This document shows positions 49,428-64,000 of a stretch of 64,000 bases of DNA, one piece after another. Both the position numbers and the translations under genes were made by a program. Origin of the DNA: Actinoplanes teichomyceticus ATCC 31121 (lineage in GTDB: Bacteria > Actinomycetota > Actinomycetes > Mycobacteriales > Micromonosporaceae). A model generated the notes under the pieces. It saw only the letters and a program-made list of their open reading frames with translations. It was not told where the DNA came from and did no database searches. The stretch is taken from positions 6,741,001-6,805,000 of the forward strand of contig NZ_CP023865.1 in NCBI RefSeq assembly GCF_003711105.1, in the 5' to 3' direction. Every line of letters starts with the position of its first letter. Positions within the stretch are counted from its first letter, which is position 1.

Positions 49428-49819
49428 CGGTGGTCACGTCAGGGCAGGGTCCACAGCTGGTTGGCGCCGGCGTGGCAGTCCCAGAGGTGGATCTGCTGAC
49501 CGTCGGTGGACTTGGCCTCGGAGACGTCCAGGCACTTGTTCGACTGCGGGTTCTTCACCGTCTTGTCCGGCTGGGCCACCCAGTTCTGCGCGGCGGAGCC
49601 GTTGCACGTCCACAACTGCGCCTTGGTGCCGTTCGCGGTAGCCCCGCCGGCGACGTCCAGGCACTTGTTGGACTGCGGGTTGCGCCACACCTGACCGTCG
49701 ACGGTCCAGGTCTGCGCGCCCGTGCCGTTGCACGTCCACAACTGGATCCTCGTGCCGTCGGCACTGCCGCCGGCGTCGACGTCCAGGCACTTGCCGGCGA
49801 AGCCGGCCACCGGCCCGGT
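49428..49819 (-). repeat. ricin-B coding repeat, copy 1 (392 bp)
   Basis: Identical to 51604-51995 except at two positions: 49489 (G versus A, changing His to Tyr) and 49718 (G versus A, silent). It spans the whole ricin-B lectin segment and 11 bp past the stop. Confidence 0.95.
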
Positions 49820-51541
49820 AGCGGTGCCGCCGCCGGACGCGTCCAGGGTGAAGTCGTCCACGTCGAAGAGCCCGCTACCGGATCCGGTGTAGGTCAGGTA
49901 CAGGGTGCGGGTGCCGGACGGCACGGCGGACAGGGTGGTGGTGACGTCGGCGAAGGTTCCCCAGCTGCCGGTGTTGGGCACCGTCACCGAGCCCAGCACG
50001 GTGCCCGTGGCGGATCCGGTGCGCACCTGGATGGTGCCCCCGGCACCGCCGGAGACGACTCGCGCCGTGAAGGTGGTGATCCCGGTCAGGTCGACGCCGC
50101 TGTAGGAGCTCCAGTCACCCGGGTCGATGTAGCCCAGCGTCTGGCCGTTGTGGGCGCCGCTCTTGGTGAACGGCTGCACCCCGCTGGCGGAGGTGTACGC
50201 CTCGGCCTCGAGGGTCCGGGCGCCACCCCCGCCGCCGTTCAGCTCCTTGAGCCGAACATTGCGGAACGACACCTCGTCGCCGGTGCCGTGGTTCTGCAGG
50301 CCGATGTAACCGTCCAGGTTGCGCGCCGGGTTGGTGTTGGTGAAGTCGTTGATCTTCACGCCGTTGAGGAAAATCTGGAGTCGCTGGCCCTCCACGAGCA
50401 ACTCGAAGGTGTTCCACTCGCCCGGCGGATTCAGCGCGGCGTCACGAGCGGCGGTGTTCGCGCCCTGGAAGCTGTAGACCGCGCCGGTGGTGCGGTCGGC
50501 GCTGTCGGTGGCGTCGATCTGGATCTCGTAGCCGTTGTCCACTGCCGACCACGGGTCGCTCGACGCCGGGAAGCCGATGAAGACGCCCGAGTTGTCGTCG
50601 CCGGACATCCGCCAGTCGAGCTTCAGGGAGTAGTTCGTGTACGCCTTCGCGGAGTACCACAGCATCCCGAGGCCGCCGACCGAGGTCAACGTGGCATCAC
50701 TGTTCGTGAAGCTTCCCGGCCCGGCCTGGGACCAGCCGGATGTCGAGCCGTTGTAGAGCGGCGTGTAGCCGGTCTCCGGCCGGCAGTCGGCCTGGGCGCG
50801 CCCGGCCGTGTAGCGGATCCCACCGAGCAGGTGCCGGCGGAACCCCGGGTCCGCGTACGACGCGATGGTGTGCCCACCGCCGGTGTAGAAGGAGCGGCCC
50901 GAGTCGAGGGTCTTGCACCAGGCGTGCGGGTGGTCGCCGCCCATGCCGCCGCCGGAATACGACGTCTCGTCAAGGGACGCGAGCACGTGGGCGGTGCTGC
51001 GGGCATTGGTCTTGTAGTTGTACCACTCGTCGGTACGGGTCCAGGTCTGCGGCAGGTGCGCGGTGGCCGCGTGCGCCCGGTCCTCGACCTTGATGTCGGC
51101 CTGCTGGATCGACGGGTGGGAGGCGAACCAGGCGCCGACGAGTTGACCGTAGAAGGGCCAGTTGTACTCGGTGTCGGCGGCGGCGTGTACGCCGGCGAAC
51201 CCGCCGCCGCCTCGGATGTACGACTCGAAGGCGGTCCGCTGGGTCGCGTCGAACACGTCACCGGTGGTGTTCAGGAACACCACCGTCTCGTACCCGGCGA
51301 GGTCGGACGTGGTGAAGGTGGCGGCGTCCTCGGTGGCGGTGACGGTGAAGTTGTTCGCGGCACCCAGGTCCTTGATCGCCTGCACGCCGGCGCCGATGGA
51401 ATCGTGGCGGAAACCGGCGGTCTTGGAGAAGACCAGCACGTCGTAGGCGGGATCGGCGGCGGAGGCGGGGGTGACGGTACATGCCAGAGTGGTCAACGCG
51501 GCGGTGGCCACGCCGAGTAGAGAGCGGAAAGGTTTGCGCAC
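49439..51541 (-). CDS. secreted ThuA-DUF1080-CBM6-ricin B multidomain protein
   Basis: 700 aa from a GTG with GAGGGG 7 nt before it. Signal peptide (~1-28), ThuA-like domain (~30-260: LVFSKTAGFRHDSIGAGV, GGGFAGVHAAADTEYNWPFY), DUF1080 (3-keto-disaccharide hydrolase-like, ~265-440, SGDDNSGVFIGFPAS), CBM6-like module (~445-575) and a ricin-B lectin (~580-700) with three QxW-type repeats. Secreted; probably acts on keto-sugars or glycosides bound by the lectin. The lectin part is nearly identical in DNA to that of the next gene. Family calls firm; substrate unknown. Confidence 0.9.
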   Translation of the reverse strand: MRKPFRSLLGVATAALTTLACTVTPASAADPAYDVLVFSKTAGFRHDSIGAGVQAIKDLGAANNFTVTATEDAATFTTSDLAGYETVVFLNTTGDVFDATQRTAFESYIRGGGGFAGVHAAADTEYNWPFYGQLVGAWFASHPSIQQADIKVEDRAHAATAHLPQTWTRTDEWYNYKTNARSTAHVLASLDETSYSGGGMGGDHPHAWCKTLDSGRSFYTGGGHTIASYADPGFRRHLLGGIRYTAGRAQADCRPETGYTPLYNGSTSGWSQAGPGSFTNSDATLTSVGGLGMLWYSAKAYTNYSLKLDWRMSGDDNSGVFIGFPASSDPWSAVDNGYEIQIDATDSADRTTGAVYSFQGANTAARDAALNPPGEWNTFELLVEGQRLQIFLNGVKINDFTNTNPARNLDGYIGLQNHGTGDEVSFRNVRLKELNGGGGGARTLEAEAYTSASGVQPFTKSGAHNGQTLGYIDPGDWSSYSGVDLTGITTFTARVVSGGAGGTIQVRTGSATGTVLGSVTVPNTGSWGTFADVTTTLSAVPSGTRTLYLTYTGSGSGLFDVDDFTLDASGGGTATGPVAGFAGKCLDVDAGGSADGTRIQLWTCNGTGAQTWTVDGQVWRNPQSNKCLDVAGGATANGTKAQLWTCNGSAAQNWVAQPDKTVKNPQSNKCLDVSEAKSTDGQQIHLWDCHAGANQLWTLP

Positions 51542-51579
51542 GGCGATCCCCTCGGCTGAGCGGTTATGCGGCGGATGGG

Positions 51580-51606
51580 CCGGTCCCGGCCGCACGCCGG
51601 GACCGG
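51580..51606. terminator. hairpin terminator of the PQQ-dehydrogenase-like gene
   Basis: CCGGTCCCGGC (51580-51590) and GCCGGGACCGG (51596-51606): perfect 11-bp stem, 5-nt loop, 8 bp past the stop at 51615. Confidence 0.85.
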
Positions 51607-51995
51607 TGGTCACGTCAGGGCAGGGTCCACAGCTGGTTGGCGCCGGCGTGGCAGTCCCAGAGGTAGATCTGCTGACCGTCGGTGGACTTGGCCTCGGAGA
51701 CGTCCAGGCACTTGTTCGACTGCGGGTTCTTCACCGTCTTGTCCGGCTGGGCCACCCAGTTCTGCGCGGCGGAGCCGTTGCACGTCCACAACTGCGCCTT
51801 GGTGCCGTTCGCGGTAGCCCCGCCGGCGACGTCCAGGCACTTGTTGGACTGCGGGTTGCGCCACACCTGACCGTCGACGGTCCAGGTCTGCGCACCCGTG
51901 CCGTTGCACGTCCACAACTGGATCCTCGTGCCGTCGGCACTGCCGCCGGCGTCGACGTCCAGGCACTTGCCGGCGAAGCCGGCCACCGGCCCGGT
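51604..51995 (-). repeat. ricin-B coding repeat, copy 2 (392 bp)
   Basis: Partner of 49428-49819, offset 2176 bp, two mismatches. Confidence 0.95.
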
Positions 51996-54443
51996 GCGGG
52001 CGGCACTGCCGGTGGTGAAGGTGAACGCGTCGACGTCGAAGAGTGCCCCGCTACCGCCCGCGAAGGTCAGAAGGAGGGTGGTGGTGCCGGCCGGAGGGCT
52101 GGCGATCGTACCGGAGACCGTGGTGAAGGTCTCCCAGCTGCCGGTGACCGGCACCGTGGCGGAGCCGAGCACCGGGCCGGTGGCCGAGCCGGCGCGCAGT
52201 TGCAGGGTGCCGCCGGCCCCGCCGGAGGAGACCCGGGCGGAGAACGACGTCGCGTTGCTCAGCTGGTACGGCTCGAAGGAGATCCAGTCGCCGTTGCTGA
52301 TGTCGCCGACCGTCTTACCGCCCTCGGCCGCGACCTTGCCGTAGACGGTGACGCCCGAGGCGTTCTTGTAGTGCTCGGCCTGGCGGTGCCTGGGCTGCAA
52401 GGTGTGCTGCGTGTGCGTGGCCAGGCCGCCGGCGTCGGTGTATTCGGCGTCGAACACCGCGAAGATGTTCGCGGCCGCGTCGTGTTCACCGTCGACCGGG
52501 ATGGTCACCGAGCCGGAGCAGCCGGTGGTGGAGGAGATCTGGTGGCCGTGCTGGTCGTGACCGAGCACGTAGGTCATCTTGACCTTGGAGCAGTCGATGG
52601 CCGACTCCTCCGGGTCGGTGACGGTCACCGTGTACGGGATCGTGTCACCGAAGTCGAAGAGCCGCCCGTTGCCGGGGGTGGAGATGGTCACCGTGGGCGC
52701 GGTGTTGCCCACGCCGATCTGCACGCCGGCGCTGCCGGTGGCGCCCTGGGCGTCGGTGACGGTGAGCGTGACGTTGTAGGTGCCGTTGCTGGTGAACGTC
52801 TTGGCCGGGTTGGCGGACGTGGAGGTGGTGCCGTCGCCGAAGTTCCAGGAGTAGGTCAGAGCCGAACCCTCGGGGTCGCTGGAGCCGGCCGAGGAGAACG
52901 TGACGGTCAGTGGCGCCTGGCCGGAGACCTTGTCGGCCGTGACGTTGGCGGTCGGGCTCTTGTTGCCGCTACCGACGTAGTCGTACCGGTACAGCGCCGA
53001 GTTCTCGTCGCCGTTGAAGTAGCCGGTGCCGTAGTCAAGCACGTAGAGCGAGCCGTCCGGGCCGAAGGCCATGTCCATGACCTGCTTGCCGTTCCACGGG
53101 AAGGTGGCGATCTCCCCCACCGAGCCGTCGCTGCCGACGTGGACCGGTTTGATCCAGCCGCGCCCGAACTCGCCGGCGAAGAAGTGCCCCTCGAACGACT
53201 GCGGGAACTTGGTGGTCGACGTCGAGGAGGCGTTGTAGCGGTAGACCGGCCCGGCCATCGGAGATTCGGAGCCGCCACCGAACTCCGGCGGGCTGCCGGC
53301 GTCGCCGGCGTAGCGGATCCAGGCGGCCTTCGCCGGGGGCAGGGTACTGCGTCCGGTGTTGCGGAACGAGTTGTTGGCCGGCCCACCGGTGCAGTCGTAC
53401 TTGGCGCCGGCCGTACCGGCGTCGAAATCCCACTCGGCGTACGTCTCGGTGGCGGTGTTGGTGCCGGTGCAGTACGGCCAGCCGTAGTTGCCGGGCCCGG
53501 TGACCCGGTTGAACTCGACCTGTCCGCTCGGGCCCCGGCTGGAGGTGGAGCCGGCGTCCGGCCCGTAATCACCGACGTACACCACTCCGGTGGCCTTGTC
53601 CACGCTCATCCGGAACGGGTTGCGGAAGCCCATCGCGTAGATCTCCGGCCGGGTCCTCGCGGTGCCCTGCGGGAACAGGTTGCCCGCCGGGATCGAGTAC
53701 GAGCCATCCGCGTTCACCTTGATCCGCAGGATCTTGCCCCGCAGGTCGTTGGTGTTGCCGGCGGTGCGCTGGGCGTCGAAGGCCGGGTTGCGGTTGGCGC
53801 GCTCGTCGAGCGGGGAGTAGCCGTTCGACTGGAACGGGTTGCTGTCGTCGCCGGTGGACAGATAGAGGTTGCCCGCGGCGTCGAAGTCGATGTCACCGCC
53901 GACGTGGCAGCAGATGCCCCGGTCGGCCGGGACATCGAGGATCTTGGTCTCGGCGGAGAGCTTCCAGTCGCTGGTGAGGGTGAAGCGCGAGAGCCGGTTG
54001 ACACCCTGCCAGGCGGACCAGTCGGTGCCGGTGCTCGGCGCATCCCCGCCCGGGGTGCTCAGCGGCGGGGCGTAGTACAGGTAGATGTGCCGGTTGGTCG
54101 AGAAGTACGGGTCGACGCCGACGCCCTGCAGCCCTTCCTCGTCGTGGCTGTAGACCGCCAGGGTGCCGACGACGGCGGTGTTGCCGTTGCTGTCGGTGCG
54201 CCTCAGGGTGCCGTTGCGCGCGGTGTGCAGGACCGAGCGATCCGGCAGCACCGCCAGCGTCAGCGGCTCGCCGACCTCCGGCTCTCCCTTGGCGAGGGTG
54301 ATCTGCGCAAAGTCGGTGGCGTCGATGGGGTGGGCCTGCACCGCGGTGGCCGAGCCTACGACGGTCACCGCTGCTACGAGCAGGGAACTCGCTGCAGCGG
54401 CGCACCAGCGGAACCGGGACGAACGACCTCGGAGGGATTGCAT
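51615..54443 (-). CDS. secreted PQQ-type sugar dehydrogenase with PKD, CBM and ricin-B modules
   Basis: 942 aa. Signal peptide (~1-37), then a glucose/sorbosone dehydrogenase beta-propeller (~40-500): HVGGDIDFDAAGNLYLSTGD, MGFRNPFRMSVD, GPGNYGWPYC. A PKD domain (LTYSWNFGDGT, ~515-600), an Ig-like segment, a CBM6-like module (~700-815) and the ricin-B lectin (~825-942). Oxidises sugars outside the cell, with PQQ as expected cofactor; PQQ genes are not in the window. AGGAAGAGG before the ATG at 54443. Its own terminator separates it from the ThuA gene. The lectin shares near-identical DNA with that gene. Confidence 0.9.
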   Translation of the reverse strand: MQSLRGRSSRFRWCAAAASSLLVAAVTVVGSATAVQAHPIDATDFAQITLAKGEPEVGEPLTLAVLPDRSVLHTARNGTLRRTDSNGNTAVVGTLAVYSHDEEGLQGVGVDPYFSTNRHIYLYYAPPLSTPGGDAPSTGTDWSAWQGVNRLSRFTLTSDWKLSAETKILDVPADRGICCHVGGDIDFDAAGNLYLSTGDDSNPFQSNGYSPLDERANRNPAFDAQRTAGNTNDLRGKILRIKVNADGSYSIPAGNLFPQGTARTRPEIYAMGFRNPFRMSVDKATGVVYVGDYGPDAGSTSSRGPSGQVEFNRVTGPGNYGWPYCTGTNTATETYAEWDFDAGTAGAKYDCTGGPANNSFRNTGRSTLPPAKAAWIRYAGDAGSPPEFGGGSESPMAGPVYRYNASSTSTTKFPQSFEGHFFAGEFGRGWIKPVHVGSDGSVGEIATFPWNGKQVMDMAFGPDGSLYVLDYGTGYFNGDENSALYRYDYVGSGNKSPTANVTADKVSGQAPLTVTFSSAGSSDPEGSALTYSWNFGDGTTSTSANPAKTFTSNGTYNVTLTVTDAQGATGSAGVQIGVGNTAPTVTISTPGNGRLFDFGDTIPYTVTVTDPEESAIDCSKVKMTYVLGHDQHGHQISSTTGCSGSVTIPVDGEHDAAANIFAVFDAEYTDAGGLATHTQHTLQPRHRQAEHYKNASGVTVYGKVAAEGGKTVGDISNGDWISFEPYQLSNATSFSARVSSGGAGGTLQLRAGSATGPVLGSATVPVTGSWETFTTVSGTIASPPAGTTTLLLTFAGGSGALFDVDAFTFTTGSAARTGPVAGFAGKCLDVDAGGSADGTRIQLWTCNGTGAQTWTVDGQVWRNPQSNKCLDVAGGATANGTKAQLWTCNGSAAQNWVAQPDKTVKNPQSNKCLDVSEAKSTDGQQIYLWDCHAGANQLWTLP

Positions 54444-54564
54444 GGGACAACCTCTTCCTGAGCGGGACAAAACGCTAAGCGAGGCGCGCGCCGTCGCGCC
54501 CGATGGCCTAGCCGGAGTGAAGAGACCGCCAAGGGAAACCGCGCCGCCGGTCCACTTCGACGTA

Positions 54565-54579
54565 ACACCGAAGGTGTTG
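54565..54579. promoter_or_regulatory. small inverted repeat in the promoter of the PQQ-type gene
   Basis: AACACC-GAA-GGTGTT within an unusually AT-rich 100-bp patch, ~120 bp before the start of the dehydrogenase gene. Possible operator. Confidence 0.3.
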
Positions 54580-54640
54580 TGTCAGAAACATTAAGGAGTC
54601 GATTGACCACTGTCTATACTTTTGCAGAGCCAATATGGAC

Positions 54641-54660
54641 TTTCGCTTTTCCTGGCGAAA
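54641..54660. terminator. hairpin after the ebo-like operon
   Basis: TTTCGC (54641-54646) and GCGAAA (54655-54660), 6-bp stem directly behind the last stop codon of the operon (54661). Confidence 0.4.
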
Positions 54661-55379
54661 CTACTGCCGGTGCGGGCGGTTCGTCGCCTCCTCGGCCAAG
54701 GCCGTCAAGGCAGCGGCCACCTGCGCCGGCACGGGCGCGGCGCCGATCTGCAACGGGCGGGTCACCGTGTACCGCGCCGTCTTCATGCGGATCACGGTCA
54801 GGGCGCTGGCCGCCGAGCCGTCGCCGACGCTGGACACCAGGTCGAGATACTGACCGGCGATGATCTCGGTGCGCATACCGGCGAAGACGGCGTAGCCGCG
54901 GTACACCTGCTCGCGAGTCAGCCCACACCCCTGGAACATCTCGTCCGCCCAGGCCGCACACAGGTCGCCGCAGAGCAGGGCGGTGTTGCGCCCGTACCGC
55001 GCCGCGTCGCCGCGCCACGAGGAGCGGGTGTGCGGATCGGCGAAGAGCTGGTGCACCGACGGCTCCCCGCGCCGCCGCTCACTGCCGTCCATGATGTCGT
55101 CGTGGATGAGCGCGAACGCGTGGAAGAGCTCCAGCGCCGCGGCCGCGGTGACGATCGGGGCGCATTCCTCGCCGCCGGCACTGCGCCGGCCCCAGTAGCA
55201 GAACATCGGGCGCAGCCGCTTGCGCCTGCGAGCACGAAACGGTGCAGCGCGGTCAAGAGCCCGCGGGGGGCGCCGTCCGGCCACCCGGGTCCCTGTCGAT
55301 GCAGGAACGCGGCCAGCTCGGCGTCGAAGCGGGCCCGCAGCTTCGCGTTGTCGCATCCGCGCGTGACCAGCTGAGTCAT
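54661..55379 (-). pseudogene. polyprenyl diphosphate synthase with frameshift and internal deletion
   Basis: From an ATG at 55379: DAELAAFLHRQGPGWPDGAP, then TALHRFVLAG in one frame. The family continues GKRLRPMFCYWG; here KRLRPMFCYWG is found in another frame, and a single missing G near 55228 explains it. The first Asp-rich motif LIHDDIMDG is intact. After TRPLQIGAA the sequence jumps to PVPAQVAAALTALAEEATNR, the normal C-terminus, so ~100 residues with the second Asp-rich motif (DDxxD) are gone. No synthase activity is expected. It would have supplied the prenyl donor for the UbiA protein. Confidence 0.82.
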
Positions 55380-55446
55380 GGCCTGCCCCGCACCGGCGAG
55401 ACACGGCCGCGCCACAGTGCGGGCGGCGGGTCGGGGACGCTCGGCA

Positions 55447-56832
55447 TCACTCCCCCTCCAGACCGGCCAACTCCAGCAGCACGCCCTTGACGTCGGTGGC
55501 GGCGAGCCGGGTGCGAGCGGCGGACGCGTCCGAACACAGCAGGACCGGGGCGTCGGCCGGGTCGCCCGGCAGCCGCCCGTGCGAGCCGCGCACCGCCTGT
55601 GCGCCCGCATCCAGCCCCACCACGTTCATCAGATACCGCATCCCGAGCTTCCTGCGCGCCAGCGCCAGCACCGCGCGCCGCTTCGCCGCGCCCGGGGCGG
55701 CCGGATCGAAGAACAGTTCGGCGGGGTCGTATCCGGGCTTGCGGTGAATCTCCACCAGGCGCGCGAAGTCGGGCGCCCGGGCGGTGTCGAGCCAGTAGTA
55801 ATAGGTGAACCAGGCGTCCGGCTCGGCCACCAGCACCAGCTCCCCGGCTCGCGCGTGATCCAGCCCCTGCCGGCGCTTGCCCTCGGCATTCAGCACGTCG
55901 GCCACCCCGGGCAGGCCGGTGAGCAGTTCGGTCACGTACGGCAGGTCGGCCGGCTGCCGGACGTAGACGTGCGCCACCTGGTGGTCGGCCACCGCGAACG
56001 CCCGCGAGGTCCACGGATCCAGGTACTCCATGCCGTCCTGACGGTGCACCCGCAACAGGCCTCCGGCCCGCAGCGCACGGTTGACGTGCACCGGGCGTTG
56101 CACGGGCGTGATGCCGTACTCCGACAGCGCCACCACCGTCGCTCCGCGCGCGACTGCCGCCCGCAGCAGCGGCCCGAGCACGGCGTCCAGTGCGGCGGCG
56201 GCCGCCGCGGCCCGCGGATCCGCCGGGCCGTAGCGTTGCAGGTCGTAGTCCAGATGCGGGACGTAGACCAGCGTCAGGTCCGGGTCGTGCGCCGCCATCA
56301 CCTGCTCGGCGGCCCGGCAGATCCAGTGCGAGGACGCCAGGCCCGCGCCCGGCCCCCAGTAGCTGAACAGCGGGAAGGCGCCGAGCCTCGCGGTCAGCTC
56401 GTCGTGCAGCTCGGGTGGATCGGTGTAACAGTCCGGGTCCTTGCGGCCATCCGCCCGATAGATCGGACGTGGCGTGACGGTCCAGTCCACGTCGGCACCC
56501 ATCGCGTACCACCAGCAGATGTTCGCCACGGTGAACCCGGGCCGGCGCCGGCGTGCGGTGTGCCACAGCTTCTCCCCGCCGACCAGGGCGTTGTGCTGGC
56601 GCCACAGCAGAACCTCCCCGAGATCCCGGAAGTACCATCCGTTGCCGACGACCCCGTGCCCGGCCGGCCGCTCGCCGGTCAGGAACGTGGCCTGCACCGA
56701 GCAGGTGACCGCCGGCAACACGGGATCGAGCCGGGCCGAGAATCCTCCGTCGGCGACCGCCCGCAGGCGGGGCATGTGTGCCAGCAGCCGCGGCGTGAGC
56801 CCCACCACGTCGAGGACGACAAGCTTGCTCAT
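55447..56832 (-). CDS. alkaline phosphatase/nucleotide pyrophosphatase-fold protein (EboF-like)
   Basis: 461 aa. N-terminal KLVVLDVVGLTPRLL (the usual DG(M)T metal Asp region), nucleophile-like segment PAVTCSVQATFLTGERPAGHG, metal ligands VYVPHLDYDLQRYGP and VALSEYGITPV, and late DHQVAHVYV. All are in the order of the type I phosphodiesterase/AlkP fold; the nucleophile Thr (AVTCS) appears conserved. Corresponds to EboF-type proteins of ebo clusters. The ATG overlaps the EboE stop (ATGA). Probably removes a phosphate from a prenyl-cyclitol intermediate; unproven. Confidence 0.82.
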   Translation of the reverse strand: MSKLVVLDVVGLTPRLLAHMPRLRAVADGGFSARLDPVLPAVTCSVQATFLTGERPAGHGVVGNGWYFRDLGEVLLWRQHNALVGGEKLWHTARRRRPGFTVANICWWYAMGADVDWTVTPRPIYRADGRKDPDCYTDPPELHDELTARLGAFPLFSYWGPGAGLASSHWICRAAEQVMAAHDPDLTLVYVPHLDYDLQRYGPADPRAAAAAAALDAVLGPLLRAAVARGATVVALSEYGITPVQRPVHVNRALRAGGLLRVHRQDGMEYLDPWTSRAFAVADHQVAHVYVRQPADLPYVTELLTGLPGVADVLNAEGKRRQGLDHARAGELVLVAEPDAWFTYYYWLDTARAPDFARLVEIHRKPGYDPAELFFDPAAPGAAKRRAVLALARRKLGMRYLMNVVGLDAGAQAVRGSHGRLPGDPADAPVLLCSDASAARTRLAATDVKGVLLELAGLEGE

Positions 56833-57992
56833 CGGTTCGCCTCCACCGGGCCGGCCGGCCTCAGGCCGAGGTCACCGAGCAGGTCACGGGTGTACGCCAG
56901 CTCACCGGCGATGCCGTCGGCCAGCTCGGCGGCGGTACCGGGTCGCCGGTCGGGCGGCAGCACGTCCCACGTGTAGGTCTCGACATCGAGGTGGTCGCAC
57001 CAGGGCTCGGCAGCGGTCATGAGCTCCCGCAGCCCGGCCTCCAGCACCGGGGTGGTGCTCGCCAGCGGCACGGCCGGCGCCGCATGCAGCGGAACGTGGA
57101 AATGCACCCGCCACGGTCCGGGCAGATCCTCGGCAAGGGCGAGGTCCAGGTCGTCCGTGCCCGCGCCCCCGGCCGAGCGGGTCTGGTGCAGGAACCGGGG
57201 CTCCGCATAGGGCCCGATCACCTGCCGGGCCGCCACCGGGTCGGTGACTTCCAGAGCCGCACTGACCTGTACCTTCACCACGGGCAGGCCGGCCGCCGCC
57301 AAGCGGTCGAGGGCCGCGGCCGGCTCCTCCCAGGCGCACGCCAGGTGGGCCAGGTCGAGGCAGACACCCAGCCGGTCGCGGTCGACCGCCGAGAACAGCC
57401 GCGCCGCCTGCGCGGTGGTCTCCACCACACAGCCGGGCTCGGGTTCGAAGCCGACCCGCACCTCACGGCCGCTGTCCCGGCCGATCTCGGCGAGGCCACC
57501 GGCCAACCGGTCCAGCATCGCCAGCGCCGCCTCGTGCTGGTCCGGGCGCCACGGCTTTCGCCACGCCAGCGGCAGGGTGGAGATGGATCCGCGACGTACG
57601 TCGCCGGGCAGCAGGTCGACCAGCACCCGGGCGAGGTCGAGGGTGTAGTCCAGGCGCTCGGCGGTCGTCCAGTCCGGATGGTAGACGGCGTGCTTCACCA
57701 CCGGGGCATGGAACGCTCGGTAGGGAAAGCCGTTCAGGGTCACCACCTCCAGCCCGCGGGCGTCGAGTTCGGCTCGCAGGCGCCGCCGCGACCCGGCGTC
57801 GCGGGCGAGAGCGGCGGCAACCGGAGCCGCCAGCCACAGGCCCAGGCCCAGCACGCCGACGTCGAGGCGTTGGCGCACCGGTACCGCGTACGCGTCCAGC
57901 TGCCGCACGATGCCGGGCAGATCCTCGGCCGGATGCACGTTGGTGCAGTAACTCACATGCACCGTCCCGCCGCTGACGTGTCGCAGTCTCAT
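56829..57992 (-). CDS. EboE-like TIM-barrel isomerase (metabolite traffic protein)
   Basis: 387 aa, sugar-phosphate-isomerase-like barrel of the EboE group: HVSYCTNVHPAEDLPGIVRQ, VVTLNGFPYRAFH, KHAVYHPDWTTAERLDYTL and SISTLPLAWRKPW are distinctive. Metal-site residues appear in VGFEPEPGCVVETT and VCLDLAHLACAWEE, and in CDHLDVETYTWDVLP. EboE is named from ebo operons of cyanobacteria and algae symbionts. Start overlaps the TatD stop (TGATG). Substrate unknown. Confidence 0.88.
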   Translation of the reverse strand: MRLRHVSGGTVHVSYCTNVHPAEDLPGIVRQLDAYAVPVRQRLDVGVLGLGLWLAAPVAAALARDAGSRRRLRAELDARGLEVVTLNGFPYRAFHAPVVKHAVYHPDWTTAERLDYTLDLARVLVDLLPGDVRRGSISTLPLAWRKPWRPDQHEAALAMLDRLAGGLAEIGRDSGREVRVGFEPEPGCVVETTAQAARLFSAVDRDRLGVCLDLAHLACAWEEPAAALDRLAAAGLPVVKVQVSAALEVTDPVAARQVIGPYAEPRFLHQTRSAGGAGTDDLDLALAEDLPGPWRVHFHVPLHAAPAVPLASTTPVLEAGLRELMTAAEPWCDHLDVETYTWDVLPPDRRPGTAAELADGIAGELAYTRDLLGDLGLRPAGPVEANR

Positions 57993-58843
57993 CAGCTGCC
58001 ACCCCGCAGGATCGAGCTGCCCTGGAAGCTTGCCGGGCCGGGCGCCGTCGCGGTCAGGTGCGGCCGTCCGGACTGCCCGTAGAACTCCACCGGATTACGC
58101 CACAGGACCTGGTCGACGTCGTCGTCGGTGAACCCGGCGGCGAGCATGGCCTCACCGGTGCGGCGGGTCAGCAGCGGGTCGGAGCGACCCCAGTCGGCGG
58201 CGGAGTTGACCAGCATCCGGTGCAGGCCGTGGCCGCGCAGGATCTCCACCATGCGCGACGGCGACATCTTCGTGTCGGGGTAGATGGAGAAGCCCATCCA
58301 GCAACCGGAGTCGTGCACCGCGCCGACCGTCACCTCGTTGAGGTGGTCGACGACGACCAGGCCGGGCTCGATGCCGGATTCCCGCACCACGTCGAGGGTG
58401 CGGCTCACCCCCCGCGCCTTGTCCCGGTGGGGGGTGTGCACCAGCGCGGGCAGGGCGTACTCGACGGCCAGCCGCAGCTGAACGGCGAAGACCTCGTCCT
58501 CCTCCGGCGTCATCGCGTCGTAGCCGATCTCACCGACCGCCACCACCGAATCCTTGTCCAGGTAGCGGGGCACCAGCGAAAGCGCCTCCCGGCAGTGTGG
58601 GTCGTTGGCCTCCTTGGGGTTGAGGGCGATGGTGGCGTGGTGCCGGATCCCGAACTGAGCCGCCCGGAACGGTTCCCAGCCCACCAGCGAATCGAAGTAG
58701 TCGGCGAACGAGCCGGCGTTGGTGCGTGGCTGGCCCACCCAGAACGCGGGCTCCACCACGGCCTGAACTCCGGCCGCGGCCATCCGCTCGTAGTCGTCGG
58801 TGGTGCGTGAGGTCATGTGGATATGCGGGTCGAAGATGCGCAT
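57992..58843 (-). CDS. TatD-family hydrolase (EboB-like)
   Basis: 283 aa. Metal-dependent hydrolase barrel: first His pair in FDPHIHMTSRT, Glu in VAVGEIGYDAMTPEE, His in ALVHTPHRDK, His in VVVDHLNEVTV and Asp in VNSAADWGRSDP. All five ligands of the TatD group are present. In ebo clusters this is EboB. Reaction in the pathway unknown. Overlaps EboA by 31 bp at its start. Confidence 0.88.
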   Translation of the reverse strand: MRIFDPHIHMTSRTTDDYERMAAAGVQAVVEPAFWVGQPRTNAGSFADYFDSLVGWEPFRAAQFGIRHHATIALNPKEANDPHCREALSLVPRYLDKDSVVAVGEIGYDAMTPEEDEVFAVQLRLAVEYALPALVHTPHRDKARGVSRTLDVVRESGIEPGLVVVDHLNEVTVGAVHDSGCWMGFSIYPDTKMSPSRMVEILRGHGLHRMLVNSAADWGRSDPLLTRRTGEAMLAAGFTDDDVDQVLWRNPVEFYGQSGRPHLTATAPGPASFQGSSILRGGS

Positions 58844-59451
58844 CGAACCTCCAGAACCGGTCGGGTGAACTGGCGCACCAGCGCGAGGGCGTCAGCAGGG
58901 AGGTGGCGTCCGGCGGCTTCGCGCTCCTCGCGCAGGCCGGCCATCATCGCCACCAGTTCGCGGTCGGCCCGCCGCGTCAGGTCGTGCACCCGCGACAGCG
59001 GAACGCCCAGGAAGACGCACTTCAGGACCGCTTGCCGCCAGGCGCGCTGGTCCAGGTGCCGGGCGTACGGGCCGAGGGCGGCGCTGAGCAGGCGGGTGTC
59101 GTTCGTGCGGATGGCGTCGTGCAGCAACGGCACGGCCTCGGCACCGATCGGCACCAGCGCCAGGGCCCGCAGAACGGCGTGCTTCTCGACCGCGTCGCCG
59201 TAGCGGTACAGCTCGTCGAGGTATCGCGGCAGGTCGGTGCGCGGCAGGGCGAGCAGCAGCAGGGCACGGGCCGCCTCGTCGGCGGTCCAGTCCGACGCCT
59301 CCGGCAACCGGGAGCGGCCGCACCGGCGGCCGGCGGCCGGGAACAACCGGGTGATGCTCGGCGGGTCGGCGCTGACTCGCGCCACCCCCGCGGCGAGCCA
59401 GGCGCCGCCGCAACAGTCGTGCAGTGCCGTACGCAGTGTGTCGGGGTCCAT
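58813..59451 (-). CDS. EboA-domain protein
   Basis: 212 aa, all-helical. EboA-type features: WTADEAARALLLLALPRTD, ELYRYGDAVEKHAVLRAL, AIRTNDTRLLSAALGPYA and QAVLKCVFLGVPLSRV. No catalytic motif is known for the family. GGGAGA precedes the ATG. The family name rests on this helical pattern and on the neighbours (EboB, EboE, EboF, UbiA). Likely a scaffold of the pathway. Confidence 0.82.
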   Translation of the reverse strand: MDPDTLRTALHDCCGGAWLAAGVARVSADPPSITRLFPAAGRRCGRSRLPEASDWTADEAARALLLLALPRTDLPRYLDELYRYGDAVEKHAVLRALALVPIGAEAVPLLHDAIRTNDTRLLSAALGPYARHLDQRAWRQAVLKCVFLGVPLSRVHDLTRRADRELVAMMAGLREEREAAGRHLPADALALVRQFTRPVLEVRCASSTRIST

Positions 59452-59506
59452 GACGTCTCCCTCTGTCGGGCATCAGGCGTGTGCCGGCCGGGCAGCCGGG
59501 TGCCGG

Positions 59507-60346
59507 TCACCCCCTCCGGGCTGCGGCCTTGAGGAACTGGATGGATCGGGCGGCCACCGCGGGGGCGGCGTGGGAATGCCGGGGCAGCTCGACCGCGACC
59601 AGACCCCGGTAGCCTGCCGCGTGCAGCGCGGCCAGCACCGGCGGGAAATCGATCTCGCCGGTGCCGAAGGGCAGGTGTTCGTGCACGCCGCGGCGCATGT
59701 CGTCGATCTGCACGTTGACCAGGTGGTCGGCCACCGCGGCGACACAGTCCGGCACCGGCTCCGGTTCCCGGCACCGGCAGTGGCCGATGTCGAGCGTGAT
59801 CCCGAAGCGGGCGGGCGATCCGAGCGCGTCGTGGAGTCGCCGCCAGCCGGCGATGTCCTCGACCAGCATCCCGGGTTCGGGCTCGAAGCCGAGCACCACC
59901 GCGTGCTCCTCGGCGGCGGCCACGACGTCGGCGCAGCCGCCGACCAGCCGTTGCCAAGCCGTGCGCTCGTCCACGCCGGGCGGCCGCACCCCGGCCCAGA
60001 ACGACACCGCCTCGGCGCCGAGGTCGGCGCCCACGGCCACCGCCCGGCGCAGGAAGTCGATCCGCAGCTCCCGCTCGTCGTGCAACAAGGTGGGTGCGTG
60101 CTTCTCCCAGGGGTCGAGAAGGTACCGGGCACCGGTTTCGATGACCAGCGACAACCCGAGGCGGGCCAGATCGGCGGCGACCGCGTCGACCCGGCGGGCC
60201 AGTCCGGGCGCGAAGGGATCGAGGTGACCGTGGTCCAGGGTGAGCGCCACGCCGTGGTAGCCGAGGTCGGCGAGAATGGTCAGGGTGTCGGTGAGCCGAT
60301 GGTTGGCGAAGCCGTTGGTGCCGTACCCGAAGCGCAGACCGGTCAC
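59507..60346 (-). CDS. sugar phosphate isomerase/epimerase of the ebo-like operon
   Basis: 279 aa, TIM barrel. LGYHGVALTLDHGHLDPF, LGFEPEPGMLVEDI (metal Glu), GITLDIGHCRCREPEP (Asp/His), NVQIDDMRRGVHEHLPFG (Asp/His) and VAVELPRHSHAAP (Glu). GTG start overlaps the UbiA stop (GTGA). Distinct from EboE but of the same superfamily; may act on the inositol-derived product. 55 bp to EboA. Confidence 0.87.
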   Translation of the reverse strand: MTGLRFGYGTNGFANHRLTDTLTILADLGYHGVALTLDHGHLDPFAPGLARRVDAVAADLARLGLSLVIETGARYLLDPWEKHAPTLLHDERELRIDFLRRAVAVGADLGAEAVSFWAGVRPPGVDERTAWQRLVGGCADVVAAAEEHAVVLGFEPEPGMLVEDIAGWRRLHDALGSPARFGITLDIGHCRCREPEPVPDCVAAVADHLVNVQIDDMRRGVHEHLPFGTGEIDFPPVLAALHAAGYRGLVAVELPRHSHAAPAVAARSIQFLKAAARRG

Positions 60347-61220
60347 GTCGGGCTCACCGCCCTGGCCAGCCGCGCGGCGAGCTCCGCGACGCAGGCGGTG
60401 GCCGCACCGGCAGCCACCGCACCCTGGCGCGCCGTCAATGCACCCTGCAAGACCGGCAAGGTGGTGATGCCGGCCCCGACCGCGGCCCGGACGCGCGCCG
60501 CGCTGGGGTCACCGATCACGGCGGCTTGGACCGCCCCGTAGCGGGCCGCGTACCAGCCGGCCAGCGCGGCCGGTACGAGCGTGCGCCGCAGCCGGGTGCC
60601 GGGCCCGGGCCGGGTGGACCCGGCCAGCCCGGCAACCGCGGCCGTCGCGGCGAGCGTACGCACCGGCAGTGATGCTTTCGCGCCGTGGACCTCGGCACGC
60701 GAGAGCATCGTGACCGTGTGGTGTGCGCGGCAACCGTCAACGTGGTGGCCAGGACCGCGCGTGGCCGGGCCCGCCACTGGCCGTCCGCGCCGAGCAGCAC
60801 GTCGAGGCCTCGGCAGGCGGCCATCACGGCCGGTCCGGCCATCGTGTTCTTCGCTCCCAGGTCGTACGCCCAGATGGCGCCGGCCAGAGCGAGCGCCACC
60901 GGAAGCCGCCGGCGCCCGCCGGCCAGTCCGGCCACCGCCATCCCGGCGGCGGTCAGGCCGACCGCCAGTCCCACCGCTGTGGTCGCGGGCACCCGACCGG
61001 ACGGGATCGGCCGGTCGGGGCGCTCGACCGCGTCGAGGTGGCGGTCGGCCCAGTCGTTGGCCGCCATTCCCGCCCAGTAAAGGCAGACCGAGGCGCCGGC
61101 CAGTGCCAGGGTGCGTGGCCGCAGGGTGCCCGCCGCGGCGGCACCGGCGACCGCGTCACCGGGCACGGAGAGGGCGGCCGGGGCGCGGGTGAGTTCGATG
61201 AGATCCCGCCAGCCGGTCAT
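60343..61220 (-). pseudogene. UbiA-family prenyltransferase (EboC-like) with one frameshift
   Basis: From an ATG at 61220 (overlapping the previous stop, ATGA): LIELTRAPAALSVPGDAVAG, membrane helices, and the first Asp-rich motif AANDWADRHLDAVERPDRP. The frame holds to LATTLTVAAHTT (~60720), after which VTMLSRAEVHGAKASLPVRT and two or three more helices follow in another frame. One missing base near 60718 would restore a ~290-aa UbiA protein. The rest is complete, so either recent inactivation, a sequencing error or a programmed event is possible. Would attach a prenyl chain to a cyclitol or sugar. Confidence 0.8.
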
Positions 61221-62365
61221 GCCGGCGACTCCGCCCCGAGCCCGGCGGCGAACGCGGTCAGCGCCTGCCACTGCTCGGCGAAACCATGCGCCACGTCGCC
61301 GAGCGGATCCTTGAAGAAGAAGGCAAGTTCGTGCAGCGGGCCGACACGCCCGGCGGCGTGCGCCGCGCCGGTGAGCCGGGCCAGGTCCAGCACCAAGGGC
61401 GCGGCCAGCGCCGAGTCACAGCCGTGCCAGGTGAATTCCAGGCGCATGCCGGTGCCCAGGAAGCCGGAGAAGGTGACCAGGTCCCAGGCCGTCTTGAAGT
61501 CACCGATGTCCTCGACGTACTCGATTCGCACCGCACCCTGCGGCTGATAGCCGAGCGTCTCCTTGAGGACGCGCTGCTTGCTGGCGCTCTTGGCCGCGTT
61601 GGCGCCCGGGTCGGCCAGGGTGGCCCCGTCGCCTCCGCCGAGCAGGTTGACGCCGGACCAACTGCGCACGTGCAGGTGACGGCGGGCGAACATCGGCGCG
61701 AGCACCGACTTCAGCAGCGTCTCGCCGGTCTTGCCGTCGTTCCCGGCGTAGGGCAGCCCGCGTCGCCGGGCGATTTCGGCCAGTGCGGGCAGGCGCGCCC
61801 CGGTCGAGGGGGTGAAGTCGACATACGAGCATCCGGCGGAGAAGGCGGCATAGGCGTAGAGCGCGCTCGGTGGAAGCACCGCCTCGCCGCGGCGCAACGC
61901 CACGTTCAGGTCCGCTGCCGTGGCATGGGCCGGATGAGCGGCCGCAAGGGGCTCGGTGGAGGAGACGTTGACCACGACCACCCGGTCCAGGCCGTACCGA
62001 TCCCGGAAGTCGCGCAGGTCCGCCTGCAGCGTGGCGGCGGTCTCCGCCTGGCTCTCGCCCGCCGGGGCCAGCCGGATGTCGGCGTCGGCCCGGACGAGGT
62101 CGTCGTGCACCGCGCGCACCAGGGCGGCGGGCAGCACACCTGAGGCGGCCAGCTCCCCGGCACGCTTGGTCAACGGCGTGGACACCCGGTCATGGCCCCC
62201 GAAGACCAGATCGCCGAAGCCGGCGAGGCCGGCGGCCCGGAATTCAGGGAGTTCGGTGACGCACCCGGTACCGGGCACCAGGCCGGCACGCAGGGCTGAA
62301 GCTCCGACAATGCTGGTCACCGCGACGCTACCGCGCCCGCCGACCAACCAGACACCCACAGTCAT
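61217..62365 (-). CDS. myo-inositol-1-phosphate synthase family protein
   Basis: 382 aa. NAD-binding GVWLVGGRGSVAVTSIVGA at the start, VVVVNVSSTEP, YVDFTPSTGAR, and the catalytic-domain signature GNDGKTGETLLKSVLAPMF, then WSGVNLLGGGDGATLADP and KDPLGDVAHGF. Converts glucose-6-phosphate-like substrates to cyclitol phosphate using NAD. GGAGGATCC before the ATG at 62365. First gene of the operon; in cyanobacterial ebo clusters a dehydroquinate-synthase-like cyclase (EboD) holds the equivalent cyclising role. Confidence 0.9.
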   Translation of the reverse strand: MTVGVWLVGGRGSVAVTSIVGASALRAGLVPGTGCVTELPEFRAAGLAGFGDLVFGGHDRVSTPLTKRAGELAASGVLPAALVRAVHDDLVRADADIRLAPAGESQAETAATLQADLRDFRDRYGLDRVVVVNVSSTEPLAAAHPAHATAADLNVALRRGEAVLPPSALYAYAAFSAGCSYVDFTPSTGARLPALAEIARRRGLPYAGNDGKTGETLLKSVLAPMFARRHLHVRSWSGVNLLGGGDGATLADPGANAAKSASKQRVLKETLGYQPQGAVRIEYVEDIGDFKTAWDLVTFSGFLGTGMRLEFTWHGCDSALAAPLVLDLARLTGAAHAAGRVGPLHELAFFFKDPLGDVAHGFAEQWQALTAFAAGLGAESPA

Positions 62366-62817
62366 GGATCCTCCGAAAGCGCAGCTGCGGCGATGGTGGA
62401 GAGGGGCCCCGCCCGCACGCCGCCCGGTCACCTGTCGCGGCACGGAAGTCGGCGGTATCAGCACCGCCACGAGTGCGGCGGCGTACGGGCAGGGCTGGCA
62501 GGCCGAGCCGGGTGGCGGCCCGGCCGGCCCGCCGTCGACACCGAGCCCGGCCGTCTCGGCTGGGCCGGTCGGTGATGGTGGAGAACAGGGTTGGCCGGCA
62601 ACGGCGTACCGAGCCGTCCCGGTGGTCGCCCGGTGCGGACCGGGAATCCCGTCCGAGCCGCATCGCGGGTGAACCACCCGGCCGCCGACCGTCCGGACGG
62701 CCGGGGCGCAACCGGGTCCGGACCCTCGTGGAACGACGGCCGAGAAGGATGAAGGGAATCGCTGATTGTCGTCGCCGCCGGCACGAACGCGGCGGCTTGC
62801 CGGCCGCGAGGGGCCGG
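62366..62817. other. promoter region of the ebo-like operon, no gene seen
   Basis: 452 bp between the inositol-phosphate synthase start and the stop of the oxidoreductase gene on the same strand. Short GC hairpins near 62780-62815 could terminate the upstream gene. Open frames are not conserved. Confidence 0.4.
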
Positions 62818-64000
62818 TCAGGCGATGGCCTCGGTCGGGGCCGACTTCACCTCCAACCATGTCGAGCCCAGCTGCGCGGAGCGTACGACGGCATCGAGGA
62901 CGAGCTGCACCTGCAGGGCGTCGGCGAACGAAGGCGCCACGTCCGCCCCGGTGGCGATCGCCTCGATCAGGTCGCGTGCCTGGTGGGTGAAGGAGTGCTC
63001 GTAGCCGATGAGGTGGCCGGGAGGCCACCATCCGGACATGTACGGATGGGTGGGTTCGGTGACGAGGATGCGGGTGAAGCCCTGCTCCGCGGCGGGGAGG
63101 GTGGCGTCGTAGAACTCGAGCTCGTTCATGCGCTCGAAGTCGAAGACGAGGGACCCCCGCGAACCGTTGATCTCCACTCGCAGCCCGTTCTTACGGCCGG
63201 TGGCGAATCGGGTCGCCTCGTAGGTGGCGATCGCCCCGCCGTCCAGCCGGGCCAGGAACAGCGCGGCGTCATCGACGGTGACCTCGCCCCGGCCTGCCGG
63301 TCCGCCCCCGGAGCCATCGCTCGCCGCGGCGCTCAGGCCGCTCGACGCTCCCGGCAGCGGCCGGTGCTTGACGAACGTCTCGGTCAGCGCGCTGACTCCG
63401 GCGATGCGCTGACCGACGACGTACTGGGTGAGGTCGATGATGTGCGCACCGATGTCACCCAGGGCGCCGGAGCCCGCCTTGTCCTTCTGCAGCCGCCAGA
63501 CCAGCGGGAACTCCGGATCGGTGATCCAGTCCTGGAGGTACACCGCGCGAACGTGCCGGATCTCGCCGAGCCGCCCCTCGGCGATCATGCGGCGCATCAG
63601 GCTGACGGCGGGCACCCGTCGGTAGTTGAAGCCACACATCGACCGCACGCCGAGCGCGGCGGCCCGGGCCGCCGCGGCGGCCATGGCCTGGGCCTCGTCG
63701 AGCGTGTTGGCCAACGGTTTCTCGCACAGTACGTGCTTGCCAGCGTCCAGGGCTGCGATCGCGATCTCGGCGTGGCTGTCACCGGGCGTGCAGATGTCGA
63801 TGAGGTCGACGTCGTCACGGGCGACGAGCGCTCGCCAGTCACTCGTGTGCTCCTGCCAGCCGAGCTGGGCCGCCGCCTCGGCGACCTTCGCCTCGCCCCG
63901 GCCGCAGACGACAGCCATCCGGGCCTGCATCGGCAGGTCGAAGACACGGTTCACGGTGCGCCACGCCTGTGAGTGCGCGGTTCCCATGAACGCGTAGCCG
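62818..64000 (-). CDS. Gfo/Idh/MocA-family oxidoreductase, 5' end outside the window
   Basis: At least 393 residues; the frame is open to the window edge (GYAFMGTAHSQAW is read through 63999), so the true N-terminus with the GxGxxG-type loop lies beyond. NAD(P)-binding fold with DDVDLIDICTPGDSHAEIAI and the catalytic-loop CEKPLANT (Glu-Lys-Pro), then CGFNYRRVPAVSL and ALGDIGAHIIDLTQYV (Asp/His). Oxidises sugars or cyclitols such as inositol. A Gly/Ser-rich insert at ~225-245. Lies upstream of the inositol-phosphate synthase operon on the same strand; may belong to sugar use rather than the ebo-like pathway. Confidence 0.9.
   Translation of the reverse strand, partial: GYAFMGTAHSQAWRTVNRVFDLPMQARMAVVCGRGEAKVAEAAAQLGWQEHTSDWRALVARDDVDLIDICTPGDSHAEIAIAALDAGKHVLCEKPLANTLDEAQAMAAAAARAAALGVRSMCGFNYRRVPAVSLMRRMIAEGRLGEIRHVRAVYLQDWITDPEFPLVWRLQKDKAGSGALGDIGAHIIDLTQYVVGQRIAGVSALTETFVKHRPLPGASSGLSAAASDGSGGGPAGRGEVTVDDAALFLARLDGGAIATYEATRFATGRKNGLRVEINGSRGSLVFDFERMNELEFYDATLPAAEQGFTRILVTEPTHPYMSGWWPPGHLIGYEHSFTHQARDLIEAIATGADVAPSFADALQVQLVLDAVVRSAQLGSTWLEVKSAPTEAIA

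Follow-up and report, generated by a model that had tools for sequence, protein, structure and literature searches.

We examined a stretch of 64,000 nucleotides (nt) from Actinoplanes teichomyceticus ATCC 31121 (contig NZ_CP023865.1, positions 6,741,001 to 6,805,000; hereafter the window), and found on its minus strand an operon of the ebo type that opens with INO1, a homologue of myo-inositol-1-phosphate synthase (MIPS), and carries no EboD. This is a real and general cluster type, a variant of ebo and not a one-off. The reading that we prefer, with our confidence about evenly divided for and against it, is that the window holds a damaged copy of a distinct and conserved actinobacterial form of ebo, whose product would be a membrane-anchored isoprenoid-cyclitol.

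A first-pass annotation, made from the sequence alone, had described eight genes on one strand, mostly with overlapping junctions, as an ebo-like operon, and had proposed that INO1 takes the place of EboD. All eight genes were found in the order that it gave (open reading frames, ORFs, together with Pfam and NCBIfam profiles), and both the ebo assignment and the exchange of INO1 for EboD held. It missed the damage to the operon, the extra TIM-barrel isomerase as a mark of the type, and the SCO3242-type identity of the UbiA protein.

The INO1 type is a general actinobacterial form of ebo

We compared 44 actinobacterial ebo loci, comprising the window, 24 same-genus loci found through their SCO3242-type UbiA (a route that favours the INO1 type), and 19 loci found in a phylum search with EboE alone. 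L-numbers are the labels of compared loci. INO1 is present without EboD at 41 loci, EboD without INO1 at one (L051), neither at two (L048 and the degraded L065), and both at none. The loci found by EboE alone divide into 16 with INO1, one with EboD and two with neither. The gene order INO1-UbiA-TIM-EboA-EboB-EboE-EboF is kept in 41 of the 44 loci, the window included, and the arrangement is therefore not due to chance.

The extra TIM-barrel isomerase (TIM) was found at 42 of the 44 loci and accompanies INO1 at every INO1-bearing locus (41/41); it marks the type as consistently as INO1 itself. At two loci from different families, one of them L063, TIM is fused to EboA, and passages of PMC5133447 mention TIM-EboA-like hybrids in Actinobacteria. 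EboE exceeded its cut-off in 18 of the 396 genomes of the phylum, host included, so the cluster is conserved in form and sporadic in occurrence. No flanking genes common to several families were seen beyond the core, which is a weak negative given the noisy ORF clustering (antisense ORFs).

Several of these loci showed features of their own. The genome with L048 has a second cluster that does contain INO1 (L049). Directly upstream of the L048 UbiA gene is a phytoene-desaturase/CrtO-like flavin adenine dinucleotide (FAD) enzyme (L048:12912-14333), and slightly farther upstream a gene of the histidinol/inositol-monophosphatase family (L048:14963-15808), both below curated cut-offs. L065 looks degraded, with a UbiA fragment and EboE in two pieces. 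The host's own genome also encodes an EboE paralogue (L066:7825-8778, near C1:1440941; NF035939 101.5 bits, cut-off 250). The 17 kb available there contain none of the other core ebo genes, and L066 was excluded from the locus counts.

INO1 and EboD clusters split by type in three of four trees

For comparison we used the best 80 of 580 loci by similarity to the L051 EboE, a sample that is uninformative on frequencies. They come mainly from Cyanobacteriota and Bacteroidota, with some from Acidobacteriota, Chloroflexota and others. EboD was present at 77 and INO1 at none of the 80, where absence means absence from the stretch available, some loci lying on short contigs. With a trimmed query, TIM was found in no cluster of the 80, and one weak match fell outside the cluster (L130). 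The weak TIM matches seen earlier at seven of the 80 loci were discarded, the untrimmed L063 query being a TIM-EboA fusion; at L151, the one locus checked, the match falls in the EboA homologue. The actinobacterial exception is L051 (Solirubrobacteraceae), which shares a contig with L074 and contains EboD but neither INO1 nor TIM. A type 2 isopentenyl-diphosphate isomerase directly follows its EboF gene (L051:12122-13162; 319.7 bits, cut-off 281.3).

Quick trees, with support from the SH-like approximate likelihood-ratio test (SH-aLRT) alone, were built for four core proteins. Of the loci labelled INO1-type (43) and EboD-type (80), the EboE tree held 29 and 27, respectively; the corresponding rows were 26 and 24 for EboF, 25 and 23 for UbiA, and 26 and 25 for EboB. 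Labels follow the cluster lineage: L048 counts as INO1-type though INO1 is not adjacent, and L103 (in all four trees where present) as well as L104 and L136 (EboE tree) count as EboD-type though EboD was not found in the stretch available. L065 was omitted throughout, and the UbiA tree was built without the window's broken copy.

The two types are separated by a single change in the EboE tree (SH-aLRT 100), the EboF tree (SH-aLRT 100) and the UbiA tree (SH-aLRT 99), for which the tree software warned of long branches meeting between the types. In the EboE tree the Solirubrobacteraceae row groups with EboD types of Thermomicrobiota, Chloroflexota and Rhodothermota. This fits a history in which INO1 and TIM were gained or lost together with the core lineage rather than gene by gene. 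Because the exchange of INO1 for EboD is general and the EboE, EboF and UbiA trees split by type, INO1 and TIM appear to form a head-group module that can be exchanged on a common EboA/B/C/E/F core.

Identities of the core proteins

EboE scored 408.9 bits against the NF035939 threshold of 250, and the EboA domain 147.9 bits against the NF035938 threshold of 50. EboA remained below the stricter EboA_family model NF035937 (80.4 bits, cut-off 320). A TatD-like EboB and an EboF matching PF01663 adjoin EboE in conserved order. NCBIfam labels both EboA and EboE as 'metabolite traffic' proteins.

UbiA is split over two matches to NF045897 ('SCO3242 family prenyltransferase'; the cut-off of 260 is for a complete protein), and these two pieces reach only 85 and 35.9 bits against the EboC equivalog NF035940 (cut-off 250). 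The intact UbiA of the related locus L069 passes NF045897 with 348.2 bits and fails NF035940 with 135.6. By these profile scores the window UbiA fits the SCO3242 family and lies outside the curated EboC equivalog.

The best profile match of EboE among solved structures is IolI, and it is weak (E 2e-5); IolE and a 3-dehydroshikimate dehydratase also appear among the folds listed for EboE. For the TIM model the best matches are 3-epimerases, and it resembles the sugar-phosphate epimerase UlaE; IolI and IolE are absent among the matches listed for it. The nearest solved chain to EboB is 3guw (AF_1765, 97 bits). Among solved structures EboF is closest to phosphonoacetate hydrolase (26 bits), whose DHG motif provides metal ligands. 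EboF reads EYG at the aligned position in the window and in both cluster types (43/43 EboF of the INO1 lineage, 71/76 of the EboD types). Given this change, EboF may be no ordinary phosphodiesterase.

INO1 resembles archaeal MIPS and is not the housekeeping copy

INO1 matched PF07994 with 158.4 bits (cut-off 25) and PF01658 with 103.8 bits (cut-off 27). Its closest proteins are from Actinoplanes, with 85% identity to that of Actinoplanes sp. NEAU-A12, and its best solved match is the MIPS of Archaeoglobus fulgidus (1u1i, 3qvs, 3qvt; mutants 3qvw, 3qvx, 3qw2), with 239.5 bits to 1u1i as a single sequence and 333 with a profile. The A. fulgidus enzyme, unlike the window INO1, is from an archaeon, and we know of no link between it and an ebo cluster. 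Residues K274, K278, K306, K367 and N255 of A. fulgidus MIPS align with K259, K263, K291, K352 and N240 of the window protein, and they also match invariant residues in an INO1 profile of 15 relatives. The mutant entries 3qvw and 3qvx carry changes at K278 and K367; K274, K306 and N255 we take to be functionally important as well. All five positions are identical in the 41 extracted INO1 sequences, window included. Since INO1 is closest to A. fulgidus MIPS and these positions do not vary, MIPS chemistry is likely for the window protein.

The genome contains three INO1-like genes, which scored 664.6 (C1:8256920), 203.9 (C1:3239030) and about 30.6-30.7 bits (window) against the mycothiol model TIGR03450 (cut-off 638 bits). 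Only the copy at C1:8256920 passes, which rules out the window INO1 as the housekeeping mycothiol copy, an objection that the first-pass annotation had itself raised. We also rejected the window INO1 as a synthase of a five-membered cyclitol phosphate of the 6k96 type, for which it scored 46.4 bits against 615.1 for the paralogue in the same genome.

This paralogue is the third INO1-like gene (C1:3238958-3240115, L072:5959-7116; 615 bits to the five-membered-cyclitol-phosphate synthase 6k96). Its neighbours are a short-chain dehydrogenase/reductase, a ribokinase-like, a phosphohexomutase-like and two methylthioadenosine-phosphorylase-like genes. The region is perhaps a carbocyclic nucleoside cluster of the aristeromycin/neplanocin type.

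The copy in the window is damaged

Two genes of the operon are broken and the remaining six are open. The UbiA gene changes frame near 60720 (frame -3 to -2). The N-terminal part of the intact same-genus homologue from L069 aligns to 61217-60720, and four of the five intact relatives aligned switch cleanly between frames near 60720, the alignments of L059 overlapping there. The polyprenyl-synthase gene changes frame near 55222. The prenyl-diphosphate synthases of six of nine relatives align with their N-terminal part in frame -3 to 55224 and then in frame -2 from 55221; those of L031, L033 and L037 stay in frame -2 over their whole alignment, and L028 shows both patterns. The L069 protein (308-aa ORF; aa, amino acids) aligns only to residue 167. 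Judged by length, roughly 115 internal codons have been lost upstream of a short C-terminal tail, and the lost stretch should, we presume, contain the second aspartate-rich motif. From the frame change and the internal loss it follows that the ORF start at 55404 is not the true start of the gene. As called, 24 prenyl-diphosphate synthase ORFs in the genus and family measure 298-356 aa, lengths that are approximate because start codons were picked by script.

Among 35 other genomes of the genus, 24 carry an intact SCO3242-type UbiA above the cut-off. The operon thus seems to be decaying in this strain while the genus retains intact copies, and with UbiA and the prenyl-diphosphate synthase broken the pathway is probably off here. 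Sequencing error may lie behind the two frame changes and is unlikely to explain the internal loss. Two codon-usage scans (400 kb of the genome, 395 kb of relatives) flagged neither known frame change, so that their positive control failed and nothing is concluded from them.

Gene order and neighbouring genes

The genome is a single contig of 8.29 Mb, and the genes of the operon are listed in Table 1. Four of the seven junctions are overlaps of 1-4 nt (INO1/UbiA, UbiA/TIM, EboB/EboE, EboE/EboF), EboA and EboB overlap by 31 nt, and the other two junctions are gaps of 55 and 67 nt. An Rfam scan of 54000-64000 gave no match at the gathering threshold.

Table 1. Genes of the INO1-type ebo operon in the window
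Feature	Position	Strand	Profile evidence or remark
Whole set, eight genes	54661..62365	-	order INO1-UbiA-TIM-EboA-EboB-EboE-EboF-polyprenyl synthase
INO1, myo-inositol-1-phosphate synthase homologue, archaeal type, 382 aa	61217..62365	-	PF07994 and PF01658
UbiA (SCO3242-type prenyltransferase), N-terminal part, frame -3	60720..61220	-	NF045897 243.7 bits, model 1-160
UbiA, C-terminal part, frame -2	60343..60720	-	NF045897 98.3 bits, model 160-287
Extra TIM-barrel sugar isomerase/epimerase	59507..60346	-	PF01261 130 bits
EboA	58813..59451	-	NF035938 147.9 bits
EboB, TatD-like metallohydrolase	57992..58843	-	PF01026 49.2 bits
EboE, TIM barrel	56829..57992	-	NF035939 408.9 bits
EboF, type I phosphodiesterase/alkaline-phosphatase fold	55447..56832	-	PF01663 215.5 bits
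Polyprenyl (farnesyl/geranylgeranyl-type) diphosphate synthase, broken	54661..55379	-	PF00348 84 bits

Directly upstream on the same strand (62818-63987) is a Gfo/Idh/MocA dehydrogenase, which scored 361 bits against a levoglucosan dehydrogenase model (cut-off 650). A dehydrogenase of this family also neighbours the cluster at five of the 24 other same-genus loci and at one same-family locus. Downstream lie genes for two large, secreted-looking proteins (51615-54470 and 49439-51613), whose C-terminal repeats read as near-identical in sequence and which we take to be ricin-like carbohydrate-binding domains.

Proposed pathway and alternatives

Based on family membership and the conserved active site, INO1 would cyclise glucose 6-phosphate to inositol phosphate. 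The extra TIM enzyme, with its epimerase-type fold, may reshape a keto sugar or keto-cyclitol, and the two together would stand in for EboD, which has been proposed in print to cyclise sedoheptulose 7-phosphate. UbiA would then attach a prenyl chain, provided in this genus by the neighbouring prenyl-diphosphate synthase, to the cyclitol or one of its derivatives. EboE, EboB and EboF could trim or modify the prenylated compound, EboA would be an accessory protein, and the product would be a membrane-anchored isoprenoid-cyclitol.

We thus infer a prenylated cyclitol as the product of the INO1-type operon. The link to isoprenoids is drawn from the prenyl-diphosphate synthase that adjoins 23 of the 24 other same-genus clusters and from the isopentenyl-diphosphate isomerase beside the L051 cluster. 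An isoprenoid-cyclitol product was proposed for the EboD types by Yurchenko et al. from other arguments (passages of PMC5133447); the INO1 types fit that idea independently, because a different family of cyclitol-forming enzymes fills the same slot.

Several points weigh against this reading. In vitro, the EboC homologue Ubi-297 transferred farnesyl to six of the 14 aromatic acceptors, with quinoline acids as the best, and the passages of PMC9235831 that describe this mention no cyclitol test. In passages of PMC6282210 the Nostoc punctiforme ebo cluster is assigned to the excretion of scytonemin intermediates. The prenyl-diphosphate synthase is mostly not next to the cluster outside the genus and family, and L048 retains a cluster without adjacent INO1. 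The split by type in the EboB tree has a support of 3 (one change), and type and phylum are nearly confounded, a single actinobacterial EboD-type locus separating them.

The prenylation of aromatics by Ubi-297 (PMC9235831, in part) also speaks for another outcome, in which the INO1 ring passes through an inosose and is converted by the two TIM enzymes to an aromatic or enedione ring, C-prenylated by UbiA; this would yield a prenylated phenol or quinone instead of an inositol lipid. The weak IolI match of EboE, with IolE and 3-dehydroshikimate dehydratase in its fold list, points the same way, as does the upstream Gfo/Idh dehydrogenase, a relative of levoglucosan and inositol dehydrogenases, in the window and at the six other loci. 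However, this dehydrogenase stands beside a minority of clusters, which leaves the core set without an obvious inositol oxidase, the TIM model fits 3-epimerases best, and the Pfam and NCBIfam scans recognised no aromatising enzyme in the cluster. We consider an aromatic product unlikely.

It is more doubtful still that the specificity of INO1 has changed as in 6k96, so that its product is a different cyclitol phosphate, derived from a sugar phosphate other than glucose 6-phosphate that TIM perhaps prepares. A solved MIPS-family enzyme named for another product does exist (6k96), and the UlaE-like TIM partner is present at all 41 INO1-bearing loci, but the window INO1 is far closer to A. fulgidus MIPS than to 6k96 (239.5 against 46.4 bits) and the checked active-site positions are unchanged in 41 of 41 sequences. 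Least probable is that the cluster serves metabolite traffic across the membrane with an inositol part only as anchor or head group, as the N. punctiforme report (PMC6282210, in part) and the NCBIfam names of EboA and EboE would suggest, since none of the eight genes matches a transporter family (Pfam and NCBIfam scans) and seven look like enzymes that act in the metabolism of sugars, cyclitols, phosphate esters or isoprenoids.

Relation to known systems and significance

The ebo cluster eboA-F is described from cyanobacteria, Bacteroidota and eustigmatophyte plastids in passages of PMC5133447 and PMC6282210. The window shares with it EboA, EboB, a UbiA-type prenyltransferase, EboE and EboF, but lacks EboD and has INO1, the extra TIM, an SCO3242-type UbiA and the order INO1-UbiA-TIM-A-B-E-F. 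Passages of PMC6282210 connect ebo genes with the export of scytonemin and with the resistance of Pseudomonas fluorescens to a nematode grazer. The BE-40644 pathway of Actinoplanes likewise combines a cyclitol synthase with a UbiA-family prenyltransferase (there a farnesyltransferase); it differs in starting from sedoheptulose 7-phosphate via EEVS, and its UbiA is not EboC (passages of PMC5133447). We found no description of an INO1-type ebo cluster in the open papers that we searched, a set without most subscription papers and all bioRxiv preprints, and the word 'inositol' is absent from the main text of each of PMC5133447, PMC6282210 and PMC9235831.

The NCBIfam prenyltransferase family that fits the window UbiA is named for SCO3242 of Streptomyces coelicolor. 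From the gene names, we presume that the SCO3242/SCO3243 locus holds the whole gene set. SCO3243 is named myo-inositol phosphate synthase, like the window INO1, in passages of PMC3610822 that list both genes among those of the CDA cluster. By this source and the NCBIfam name, the genetically tractable Streptomyces probably holds an INO1-type set, and the two genes listed with the CDA antibiotic cluster may be part of another system.

A broader proposal, which we hold tentatively and with somewhat more doubt than belief, is that the ebo pathway is modular, with either an EboD head for sedoheptulose-derived rings or an INO1 and TIM epimerase head for inositol-derived rings on one core. Actinobacteria would then make a new class of isoprenoid-inositol lipids, to which the CDA-listed genes of S. 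coelicolor would belong. A recognisable inositol-phosphate synthase as the first enzyme is a clue to ebo chemistry, as it suggests a start from a cyclitol and a substrate that can be labelled (inositol or glucose). Taken together, the INO1-type operon suggests a product that is built on inositol and carries an isoprenoid tail.

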